Positions 48,913-63,799 of a stretch of DNA of 64,000 bases are shown in pieces. The stretch lies in contig NZ_BMFC01000001.1 of assembly GCF_014637725.1 (NCBI RefSeq), positions 374,632-438,631 on the forward strand, given 5' to 3'. The first letter of the stretch is position 1; every line of letters begins with the position of its first letter. Both the position numbers and the translations under genes were made by a program. Under the pieces are notes generated by a model. It was not told where the DNA came from. It did no database searches and saw only the letters and a program-made list of their open reading frames with translations. The stretch comes from Marivita lacus (lineage in GTDB: Bacteria > Pseudomonadota > Alphaproteobacteria > Rhodobacterales > Rhodobacteraceae).

Positions 48913-49644
48913 ATGACCCACCAGGCCCTCATCGACATGCACTCCCGGTCCAACGGCTTCCTCTCCGACATCGGAGCCAAGGACAGCCTGGTTCCGGGTG
49001 CTGTCCTCGTTGCCGCCAGCTATGAGACCGCCGCATTCTCGCAGAGCCTCTTCGACGCGCTGGACATCCTCTGCCCCGACACACTGGACCGCGCCGTGGA
49101 CAAACGCCGTGCCGATTACCTCGCGGGCCGTGCGATGGCATCTGCCGCAATGGCGCTGCTCGAGCATCCACCGGCATCCGTGACCACCACACCCGGCCGC
49201 GCGCCGCTCTGGCCCGAAGGTCTTGCCGGCTCGATCAGCCACGCAAGGGGCCGCTGCGCCTGCCTGCTGTCGCGCGACACCAGCCGCAGCTACGGCGTCG
49301 ATACGGAGGCCATCGCATCAGGCCGCAGCCTGACGGCGATCCTGACCGAAACTCTGAACCCCACCGAACGCGACAGGATCGCCAAAGGCCCGCTGCCCGC
49401 AGCCATCAACGCCACGCTGACCTTCTCGGCCAAGGAGTCGCTCTTCAAGGCGCTTTATCCGCAGGTCGGTCGCCATTTCGGCTTCGATGCCGCCGAACTG
49501 ATCGCGCCACCGACAAGCGACAGCCTGGCCCTGTCCCTGACCACCGATCTCACTGAAACCCTGCCAAAGGGCCGCCGCTTCGACATCCACCACCGCGTGA
49601 CCGACTCCCATGTGCTGACATGGCTGTCGGTGCCTGCCCCCTGA
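48913..49644 (+). CDS. 4'-phosphopantetheinyl transferase (EntD-like)
   Basis: The protein has 243 residues. Motifs of the Sfp/EntD superfamily: GSISHARGRC near residue 105, GVDTEAI near 128 (magnesium ligands) and FSAKESLFKALYP near 180. It transfers phosphopantetheine from CoA to carrier proteins of peptide synthases or other acyl carriers. ATG 48913 is chosen over a TTG at 48892. No carrier-protein gene is nearby, so the target is outside the window. Confidence 0.92.
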   Translation: MTHQALIDMHSRSNGFLSDIGAKDSLVPGAVLVAASYETAAFSQSLFDALDILCPDTLDRAVDKRRADYLAGRAMASAAMALLEHPPASVTTTPGRAPLWPEGLAGSISHARGRCACLLSRDTSRSYGVDTEAIASGRSLTAILTETLNPTERDRIAKGPLPAAINATLTFSAKESLFKALYPQVGRHFGFDAAELIAPPTSDSLALSLTTDLTETLPKGRRFDIHHRVTDSHVLTWLSVPAP

Positions 49645-60847: not shown

Positions 60848-62443
60848 TCACGCCACGTCGAATTGCAGCGGCTTGACCTGCCGGAACAGGCCGGTTTCCT
60901 TGAGCTTGTCCACCACACTGGCGGGCACCGCCTCGTCAACATAGAGCAACGCAATCGCCTCACCCTTGGCAACAGACCGGCCCAGCGTGAAGTTCGCGAT
61001 GTTCACGTTGTTCTGGCCCATGGTCATGCCCAGCGTCCCGATGATGCCCGGCACGTCCTCGTTGGTGGTATAGACCATGTGCGCCCCGATCTCGGCGTCG
61101 ATATTGATGCCCTTGATCTGGATGAAGCGCGGCTTGCCGTCGCTGAACACGGTGCCCGCGATCGAGCGTTCCCGTTCGGCGGTGACAACGGTAACCTTGA
61201 TGTACCCGTCGAAGGCGCCCGATTTCGCCTGGTTGGTCGTGCTGATCTTGATACCGCGTTCCTTGGCGATCAGCGGCGCGCTGACCATGTTCACATCCGG
61301 GTTCACACGCTTCATGATCCCCGCGATGGCGGAACAGTTGAGCGCCTCGAGATTCATCTCGGACACCGAACCGTCATACAGAATGTTGATCGCCTTGATC
61401 GGCTCGTCTGTCATCTGGCCGATGAAGCTGCCCAGATGATCGGCCAGCTTGATCCACGGCCCCATGATCTTGGCCTCTTCGGCGGTCACCGACGGCATGT
61501 TGAGCGCGTTTTCGACAGCGCCTGTCAGCAGGTAATTCGCCATCTGTTCCGCCACCTGGAGCGCCACGTTTTCCTGCGCCTCGGTTGTGGCAGCACCCAG
61601 ATGCGGCGTGCACACGACGTTGGGCAGGTTGAAGAGCGGGTTGTCGGTGGCGGGTTCTTCGGCGAACACGTCAAAGGCAGCACCGGCGACATGACCGGAT
61701 TTCAGCAGTTCCGCCAGCGCGGCTTCGTCCACCAGGCCGCCGCGGGCGCAGTTGATGATCCGCACGCCCTTCTTGGTCTTGGCAAGGTTTCCGGCAGACA
61801 GGATGTTCTTGGTCTGGTCGGTCAGAGGCACGTGCAGCGTGATGAAATCGGCGCGCTTGAGCAGATCCTCCAGCTCGACTTTCTCGACCTGCATCTGCTT
61901 GGCCTTTTCCTCGCCCAGGAAAGGGTCATAGGCCACGACCTTCATCTTGAGGCCGCGCGCACGGTCACAGACGATCCCACCGATGTTGCCCGCGCCGATC
62001 ACGCCAAGCGTCTTGCCGGTCAGTTCGACCCCCATGAATTTGGACTTTTCCCACTTTCCCGCATGGGTCGAGGCGGACGCCTCGGGGATCTGCCGCGCAC
62101 AGGCGAACATCATCGCGATGGCATGTTCGGCGGTGGTGATCATGTTGCCGAAGGGCGTGTTCATGACGATCACGCCTTTCTTGGACGCGGCGTCCTTGTC
62201 GACATTGTCAGTGCCGATTCCGGCGCGGCCGATCACCTTGAGGTTGGTTGCATTCTCGAGGATCGCCTGTGTGACCTTGGTGGCCGAACGGATCGCAAGG
62301 CCGTCATATTGACCGATCACTTCGGCCAGTTTGTCCTTGTCCTTGCCCAGATCGGGCTGGAAATCCACGTCAATGCCACGGTCACGGAAGATCTGAACGG
62401 CAGCATCGGAGAGTTTGTCGGAAATGAGTACACGGGGGGCCAT
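60848..62443 (-). CDS. serA: D-3-phosphoglycerate dehydrogenase SerA
   Basis: The protein has 531 residues, the long form. The NAD motif is GVIGAGNIGGIVCDRARG near 145, the catalytic Arg/Glu/His region is INCARGGLVDEAAL and HLGAATTEAQENVA, then an allosteric-substrate-binding domain (about 320-450) and a C-terminal ACT domain (about 455-531, TNEDVPGIIGTLG) that usually binds serine for feedback inhibition. First step of serine synthesis; lies 104 bp behind serC. Confidence 0.97.
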   Translation of the reverse strand: MAPRVLISDKLSDAAVQIFRDRGIDVDFQPDLGKDKDKLAEVIGQYDGLAIRSATKVTQAILENATNLKVIGRAGIGTDNVDKDAASKKGVIVMNTPFGNMITTAEHAIAMMFACARQIPEASASTHAGKWEKSKFMGVELTGKTLGVIGAGNIGGIVCDRARGLKMKVVAYDPFLGEEKAKQMQVEKVELEDLLKRADFITLHVPLTDQTKNILSAGNLAKTKKGVRIINCARGGLVDEAALAELLKSGHVAGAAFDVFAEEPATDNPLFNLPNVVCTPHLGAATTEAQENVALQVAEQMANYLLTGAVENALNMPSVTAEEAKIMGPWIKLADHLGSFIGQMTDEPIKAINILYDGSVSEMNLEALNCSAIAGIMKRVNPDVNMVSAPLIAKERGIKISTTNQAKSGAFDGYIKVTVVTAERERSIAGTVFSDGKPRFIQIKGINIDAEIGAHMVYTTNEDVPGIIGTLGMTMGQNNVNIANFTLGRSVAKGEAIALLYVDEAVPASVVDKLKETGLFRQVKPLQFDVA

Positions 62444-62475: not shown

Positions 62476-62533
62476 GCGCTCATCAGGGCTTACGCCCTTC
62501 TTCGCGAAGAAAGCCGTCAGGCTTGATGAGCGC
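62476..62533 (-). ncRNA. Perfect 58-nt four-way-junction (cloverleaf-like) element
   Basis: Outer stem 62476-62484 with 62525-62533 (9 bp) encloses three hairpins with no unpaired base between them: 62485-62498 (agggc-TTAC-gccct), 62499-62510 (tctt-CGCG-aaga) and 62511-62524 (aagcc-GTCA-ggctt). All loops are four bases. It lies in the serC-serA spacer, 15 bases after the serC stop on the minus strand. It is not a tRNA: there is no 7-bp acceptor, T-arm or CCA. A regulatory or terminator-like RNA is likely; the strand cannot be told from symmetry. Confidence 0.6.
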
Positions 62534-62547
62534 TGGATTGTGTTCGA

Positions 62548-63729
<1,182 letters not shown>

Positions 63730-63750
63730 TTATGCTATCCTTCCAGATAA

Positions 63751-63799
63751 GCGCCCCTCGTTGGGGAGGGGTGTCCCACTGCTGCGTTTATGTGGGCGC
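63751..63799 (-). ncRNA. Structured serC leader (candidate serC-type RNA motif)
   Basis: In the serC 5' leader, 63754-63759 pair with 63766-63771 (cccctc/gagggg), 63775-63779 pair with 63792-63796 (cccac/gtggg, 12-nt loop), and the ends 63751-63753 and 63797-63799 can close both. A conserved RNA called the serC motif has been described ahead of serC operons in alphaproteobacteria; I cannot confirm this is a member. Confidence 0.4.

Follow-up and report, generated by a model that had tools for sequence, protein, structure and literature searches.

The short region between serC and serA of Marivita lacus poses a question. Within 58 nt it carries an element that can be drawn as a four-way junction, and the original prediction considered several roles for it, i.e., tuning of the serC:serA ratio, protection of mRNA ends, an attenuator, or a small repeat of a mobile family. 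Is the element a device of this one operon or a copy of something that is present elsewhere? The window, i.e., the whole stretch of 64,000 nt analysed here, covers positions 374,632 to 438,631 of contig NZ_BMFC01000001.1; the features of the locus are collected in Table 1. The clover at this site is real, it is not due to chance and it is not a single-locus regulator. The element is a member of a dispersed family; its copies are inverted doublets, with a palindrome of roughly 29 bp as the unit.

Table 1. Parts of the element and its surroundings (positions in the window)
Feature	Position	Strand	Remarks
REPIN-like inverted doublet, 58 bp	62476..62533	-	four-way junction on either strand
Outer stem, one side, with C[A/G]TC tag beside arm	62476..62484		pairs with 62525-62533
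Arm hairpin of one unit, 5 bp	62485..62498		loop TTAC on +, GTAA on -
Central arm TCTTCGCGAAGA	62499..62510		includes the longest run of invariant columns in the first alignment
Arm hairpin of second unit, 5 bp	62511..62524		loop GTCA on +, TGAC on -
Outer stem, other side, inverted tag	62525..62533		from fold and tag counts
serC, upstream gene	62548..63729	-	stop 14 nt before element
serA, downstream gene	60848..62443	-	start 32 nt after element
serC leader RF00517, separate known element	63730..63781	-	75.3 bits (gathering threshold 35)

Folding confirms the predicted architecture, a 9-bp outer stem with tetraloop arms and zero unpaired bases at the junction. The structure comprises 23 bp, with arms of 5, 4, and 5 bp. 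As RNA the element has a minimum free energy (MFE) of -30.6 kcal/mol and a z of -4.80; none of 200 shuffles was equally good. The proposed check of the complementary strand returned the same fold (-30.6, z -4.52). Of 31,971 58-mers taken across the window at a step of 2 and with odd starts, a register that left the element itself outside, four gave closed multibranch folds with at least three hairpins, the best at -19.2. The gaps had been misjudged slightly; instead of 15 and about 30 bases, 14 nt lie between element and serC stop and 32 nt between element and serA ATG.

The clover is one of two folds because a long imperfect hairpin with internal loops is nearly equal in stability (-30.4 with RNA parameters, i.e., 0.2 kcal/mol worse). 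With DNA parameters the long hairpin is the MFE structure (-18.7). The clover is retained in the MFE of the 104-nt serC-serA spacer and in that of a 161-nt stretch around the element; the latter as a whole has an unremarkable z of -0.96 and a centroid which is not the full clover. When the flanks of the 161-nt stretch are shifted the clover is lost from the MFE, i.e., the fold in context depends on the flanks. Directly upstream of serC resides its leader, RF00517, of which 76 distinct representatives (at least 34 of 52 bases identical) occur among 80 related loci.

A BLAST search with a 71-base query identified diverged copies in the own genome and matches in 5 of 40 relatives, that in G004 being an arm match only. 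The spacer searched against plasmids produced just two partial matches. A covariance model was built from ten copies picked for similarity. This model, R1, scores the element, which itself is among the model sequences, at 83.5 bits on the minus and 75.0 bits on the plus strand. Elsewhere in the window a weak R1 match at 49438-49520 (+; 14.7 bits, E 0.059) is probably due to chance. Of 17 Marivita genomes, 14 have model matches at E<=0.1, and 13 still do so at E<=1e-5. In a sample of Marivita's bacterial family with one genome taken per genus, 23 of 248 are positive at E<=1e-4. In an order sample 23 of 196 genomes were positive at E<=1e-5; this is no test of other families because every row shown, positive or negative, is from Marivita's own family. 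The class sample contained a single positive among 289, the own genome, and at least three other genomes of the same family. The searches scored the top first-look candidates, 150 per genome for Marivita and, with stricter filters, 22, 28, and 19 in the genus, order, and class samples. As only the best candidates were scored, the copy numbers are minimum values, and a missing match does not prove absence.

Strict units counted against a reversed pattern on both strands illustrate how numerous the family can be: 110:0 in G096, 70:11 in G094, 44:0 in G143, 24:2 in G144, 16:5 in G011, 13:3 in the own genome (G000), 12:2 in G015, and 2:4 in G332. The strict pattern misses variants, since G332, not above its control, has many model matches. 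Units at different loci which are alike in at least 24 of 26 positions make up 84 of 1,584 comparisons within genomes versus 25 of 27,932 between genomes. The most similar pair of units in the own genome agrees in 22 of 26 positions; these units are diverged, thus mobility in the own genome is not recent. Locus groups which span more than one genus number 9 of 81, and 36 cross-genus site coincidences compare with 2.5-6.3 expected from a rough random model. The copy set behind these groups is not an unbiased sample because top-scoring copies were chosen. It leaves out model matches in G198, G053, G102, G112, G120, G128, G223, G239, G240, and others as well as lower-ranking matches within the genomes included. 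L209 was set aside (same place as L168); L188 and L195, which are weak (28-30 bits) and inside predicted genes, were retained in the counts. One genome has two near-identical clovers 0.4 kb apart (L272:432-499 and 915-982), possibly a local duplication. L007 and L105, from two Marivita genomes, share an exact arm match of 18-19 bp in a shared, different context which is not a clover.

The claim of a small repeat family thus is supported by further copies in the own genome and by many units in relatives. The combination which would have marked a chance or strain-specific feature, unstructured spacers in relatives and no other copies, is absent in both halves; the spacers usually are structured, mostly with unrelated structure. 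Among the matches listed in the open-licence PMC literature none describes this repeat family, which apparently has been undescribed so far. The family is dispersed, patchy and mostly intergenic.

The anatomy was derived from 103 copies. A doublet consists of the tag C[A/G]TC, a short hairpin, TCYTCGC, the centre, and then the mirror image. The consensus of the outer stem is N-C-G-C-T-C-N-T-C, with the second N mostly A, that of the centre T-C-[T/C]-T-C-G. In the ten-copy alignment the CTTCGC columns of the central arm are invariant. The central arm varies in length from 9 to 39 nt; it is 12 nt in 48 of the 103 copies. At 206 ends the tags beside the arms are CATC (117), CGTC (26), CCTC (18), CTTC (15), and TATC (12). 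An arm pairs within itself at 88.5% and with its partner arm at 57.8%; local pairing is better in 87 copies, equal in 15, and inferior to cross-arm pairing in 1. The parse behind these figures selected the best local hairpins, a choice in favour of local pairing. The printed loops of 82 co-directional copies follow T-N-N-C in 46 of the 5' arms and G-N-N-A in 42 of the 3' arms, as one would expect from two inverted units. In G096 strict units form pairs with the tags outside in 20 cases and inside in 1, the pairs having been chosen by eye from the printed unit rows. Folding gives no preference to the clover in most of the 103 copies, the MFE structure of which is the long hairpin: a single hairpin loop is present in 72 with RNA and in 54 with DNA parameters, three loops in 17 and 24, respectively.

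How are the copies positioned with respect to genes? Of 123 copies, 93 are located between co-directional genes, 24 between convergent and 3 between divergent genes, with 3 undetermined; the respective numbers for the 81 locus groups are 53, 22, 3, and 3. Co-directional copies reside immediately behind the upstream stop, at a distance of -4 to 15 nt in 74 of 93 copies (median 5) and in 36 of 53 locus groups. The next start follows at a median distance of 26. Several convergent copies are 4-5 nt away from both stops. Genes were called by a heuristic based on codon usage, and individual distances may therefore be inaccurate. T runs in the 10 nt behind the element are short, with a maximum of 0-2 in 87 of the 93 co-directional copies and, for convergent ones, on 45 of 48 sides; at least four consecutive Ts within 10 nt follow in 1 of 93 co-directional copies, a finding that speaks against an attenuator or a terminator with a U-tract. 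The earlier interpretation is supported in part, with respect to the repeat family but not to the attenuator.

In the own genome the occupied joints include serC-serA, atpD-atpC, paaA-paaB, and the small-large subunit pair of a molybdenum hydroxylase; another copy is found at the end of typA. Weaker matches lie at ruvA-ruvB (34 bits) and rplL-rpoB (27 bits). The identities of the epsilon subunit, PaaB, RuvA, L7/L12, and LeuD pass NCBIfam cut-offs; those of TypA (a fragment), the hydroxylase small subunit, and a nitrate-type permease are below. The partners AtpD, PaaA, RuvB, RpoB, LeuC, and the hydroxylase large subunit are presumed from reading the sequences. At L182:1001-1063, the weak copy (27 bits) behind the rplL stop, the Rhodo-rpoB RNA RF03074 follows at L182:1160-1253, and then rpoB.

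At the serC-serA joint the clover is present in 3 of 17 Marivita genomes and, in a search of 30 other element-bearing genomes, in 5 of the 29 with serA beside serC, in total in 8 of 46 genomes from six genera. Perfect stems of at least 6 bp exist in 12 of the 14 remaining Marivita spacers. Further species of Marivita, in the spacer set L160-L176, have unrelated hairpin pairs at this joint, many of which resemble GTAG-tagged palindromes. Among 80 SerC records kept from at least 590 matches a clear clover was found solely in M. hallyeonensis, besides one weak match of 19.7 bits. SerC of the own genome matches that of Marivita at 91-93%, the basis on which the genus was assigned. The match of 19.7 bits, in a Maritimibacter serC-serA spacer (L083:4165-4224), is a weak long-hairpin relative with a GCTCGTC outer stem. 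In a midpoint-rooted SerC+SerA tree of the 46 genomes the clover label requires 8 changes and does not cluster. The three Marivita carriers branch first, with supports of 92/86, 87/86, and 85/80, none at star level; this suggests an old copy which was replaced later. A survey of 120 distinct serC-serA spacers assigned 44 to a GTAG- or GGAG-type tag beside a hairpin (a count with no chance control), 53 to other perfect stems of at least 6 bp, and 7 to the strict-pattern clover, with none of these in 16; L330 is a clover by the model and was counted by the strict pattern among the other stems. A z below -3 was obtained for 43 of 78 serC-serA spacers versus 22 of 76 other co-directional joints. 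The serC-serA spacers are enriched in structure, yet structured joints are common here anyway. At this joint the clover alternates with unrelated hairpins across relatives.

Is pairing maintained at the level of DNA or of RNA? A comparison of G-T and A-C mismatches on the coding strand separates the two kinds of palindrome upkeep and is usable on any REP family. In the four helices of 82 co-directional copies we counted 90 G-T and 89 A-C. The outer stem contributes 45 and 43, and the two arms and the centre 6, 9, and 30 G-T versus 15, 10, and 21 A-C; with one row per locus group the outer stem has 27 and 28. A G-T share of 0.7 is rejected with p 2.6e-8, a value that treats cells as independent, which those of related copies are not. 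The RNA controls differ: 26 tRNAs of the own genome have 32 G-T and 0 A-C, and the 76 distinct serC leaders 131 and 22, with 76 of the G-T from one fixed pair and all 22 A-C at one end pair. The signature of RNA, G-U kept and A-C avoided on the transcribed strand, is absent in the pooled 82 copies. The equality of G-T and A-C, unlike the RNA controls, suggests that the pairing of the family is upheld at the DNA level. It argues against strong selection on RNA structure, and a role in mRNA may be weak or incidental. In short, the pairing of the copies is not kept chiefly by RNA-level selection. Opposite to the pooled result, at the atpD-atpC locus alone departures lean to G-U. Covariation presents a mixed picture. 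The ten-copy alignment has 17 double-change cells versus 6.3 after shuffling, as high in 0 of 500 shuffles; pairs with double changes are 6 versus 4.7 (142 of 500) and further pair types 12 versus 12.2, and two of five covariation measures are not above shuffles. Within single loci covariation is weak: pairs changed on both sides number 3 versus 1.7 at atpD-atpC (79 of 500 shuffles reach the count) and 5 versus 2.9 at paaA-paaB (48 of 500).

These data bear directly on alternative readings. If the element were an RNA regulator devoted to serC-serA, read as a structured cloverleaf and possibly bound by a ligand or a protein, this would agree with the z of the fold, with the surplus of double-change cells (less so with the number of changed pairs), with clovers in six genera at this very joint and with the G-U lean at atpD-atpC. 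The strand test sets this candidate back, as no preference for G-U is seen in the pool. Copies occupy many unrelated joints, most relatives have unrelated hairpins at serC-serA, and Rfam searches returned no match at the element with E up to 5 and none at the gathering threshold at copies in 16 further loci. We consider such a regulator very improbable. A bidirectional intrinsic terminator appears even less credible. The convergent locus groups, some with copies close to both stops, are what it would predict; the check for U-tracts failed it, with short T runs behind nearly all copies, and the majority of locus groups is inside co-directional pairs.

Two further readings start from the repeat itself. 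According to one, the family belongs to the GTAG REPIN-RAYT systems, with the transposase located elsewhere or lost. The doublet architecture is the same, a clover alternative for REPINs is mentioned in the Figure S11 legend of PMC3116915, and some genomes combine high copy number with near-identity of units. The tag is mostly C[A/G]TC and not GTAG, and searches with PF01797 (Y1/RAYT) set this candidate back: the domain was not found in the own genome, with E. coli as a positive control, and was present in 10 of 65 genomes, i.e., in 7 of 48 with elements versus 3 of 17 without or with one weak match only. The 21 Y1 loci contain no strict unit. Three weak model matches (14.5-18.8 bits), all in G371, lie at two places near Y1 copies at differing distances and look incidental. 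This affiliation is unlikely. The other reading is purely selfish or mutational: template switching keeps the pairing, the copies have no function, and the spots behind stops merely tolerate insertion. Equal G-T and A-C counts, weak covariation within loci, the patchy distribution and the perfect or near-perfect inverted repeats L231, L240, and L241 are all compatible with it. The surplus of cross-genus site coincidences, a rough count, and arms which pair better with themselves than with each other, in a parse that favours local pairing, argue against it; we regard it as doubtful, although it deserves more weight than the readings above. The likelihoods we attach to these alternatives and to the explanation preferred below overlap and do not add up to a whole.

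We think it likely that the element belongs to a new REPIN-like family of Marivita's bacterial family and probably operates at serC-serA as a structure at the 3' end of an mRNA segment within the operon. Tuning of the serC:serA ratio and protection of mRNA ends, as originally envisaged, would both fit the placement. The doublets may spread within genomes as single-stranded or cruciform DNA, acted upon by a factor supplied in trans that would be novel or lost from the own genome. In tight operon joints copies would be kept because they provide a stable transcript structure right behind the upstream stop. At serC-serA this structure may stop 3'-to-5' exonucleases, slow down terminating ribosomes, or both; the serC segment of the mRNA would outlast that of serA, and the SerC:SerA ratio would rise. 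Any strong hairpin might suffice at this joint, which would explain the unrelated hairpins in related species. More tentatively, and with the odds against it, one may envisage a REPIN-like lineage that spreads without a RAYT or known transposase, is recognised as a DNA cloverleaf, alike on both strands, is confined to one bacterial family and became fixed at the same joints of operons, either repeatedly or long ago. The hairpin of a joint would then be recruited from whichever palindrome family is at hand, and serC-serA would be a site at which independent repeat families replace one another.

How REP doublets are moved when a transposase is lacking, and whether they are retained for a function or just tolerated, are open questions. 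The present family offers copy-rich genomes, with 110 strict units in G096, and sites common to several genera. At serC-serA it would provide a simple and testable route to unequal amounts of two enzymes from one operon, and the family may tune the output of each neighbouring gene.

Comparable hairpins are known from other operons. In E. coli operons hairpins without a uridine tract were found behind stabilised upstream genes (PMC5927463), and in Rhodobacter the puf mRNA has segmental stability (PMC6238624). With such protective hairpins (malEFG, puf), known from differential mRNA decay, the element shares a stable hairpin without a uridine tract and, by the explanation preferred here, a stabilised upstream gene. 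The structures in PMC5927463 are mostly inside coding regions, whereas here a dispersed repeat fills the spacer. REPs less than 16 nt from a stop lower translation, as reported in PMC12306157 with reference to its ref. 17. The distance is shared by the 74 of 93 co-directional copies within 15 nt.

Evidently, the family qualifies as REP: the unit is short and palindromic, it is extragenic, and it is repeated throughout the genome. REPINs were introduced as REP doublets which form hairpins (Bertels and Rainey, 2011; PMC3116915). The present doublets share with REPINs two inverted palindromic units, a short spacer, the extragenic location, compensatory changes, and the ability to form one hairpin or alternatively a clover. 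They differ in the tag, mostly C[A/G]TC and with CATC at 117 of 206 ends in place of the GTAG at the hairpin foot of that super-family, and in that the two arms often differ, as seen from the low cross-arm pairing. No RAYT flanked by the same units was detected in the 65 genomes and 21 Y1 loci searched with PF01797; the own genome has no Y1/RAYT and the relatives show no association.

The CGTC REPs (Di Nocera et al., 2013; PMC3733652) are characterised by the tag CGTC (TGTC, CCTC), stems of 8-9 bp and a CCA tail. They are mostly alphaproteobacterial, mostly dimers with tags outside (there termed HH), are positioned between co-directional and convergent genes and have no dedicated transposase, all of which is shared with the present family. 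The main text of that report does not contain the name Rhodobacter. Among the 206 ends the CGTC-type tags are a minority (CGTC 26, TGTC 5, CCTC 18) and CATC is dominant. The arms of the own element have 5 bp, and the parse of the 103 copies was restricted to 4-7 bp. The A-T pairs with which stems of CGTC REPs begin, at positions one and two, are not the rule here: AA..TT feet are present in 39 of 206 arms, a count that does not comprise other A/T combinations. Instead of the CCA tail, TCYTCGC follows, with TCTTCG or TCCTCG after the arm in most copies. Frequent G-T pairing in REP stems was taken in that report as a sign of RNA function; the family described here does not display this sign. The copies thus are REP doublets of neither class as defined: with no transposase found, as in the CGTC REPs, they unite the build of REPINs with the placement of CGTC REPs.
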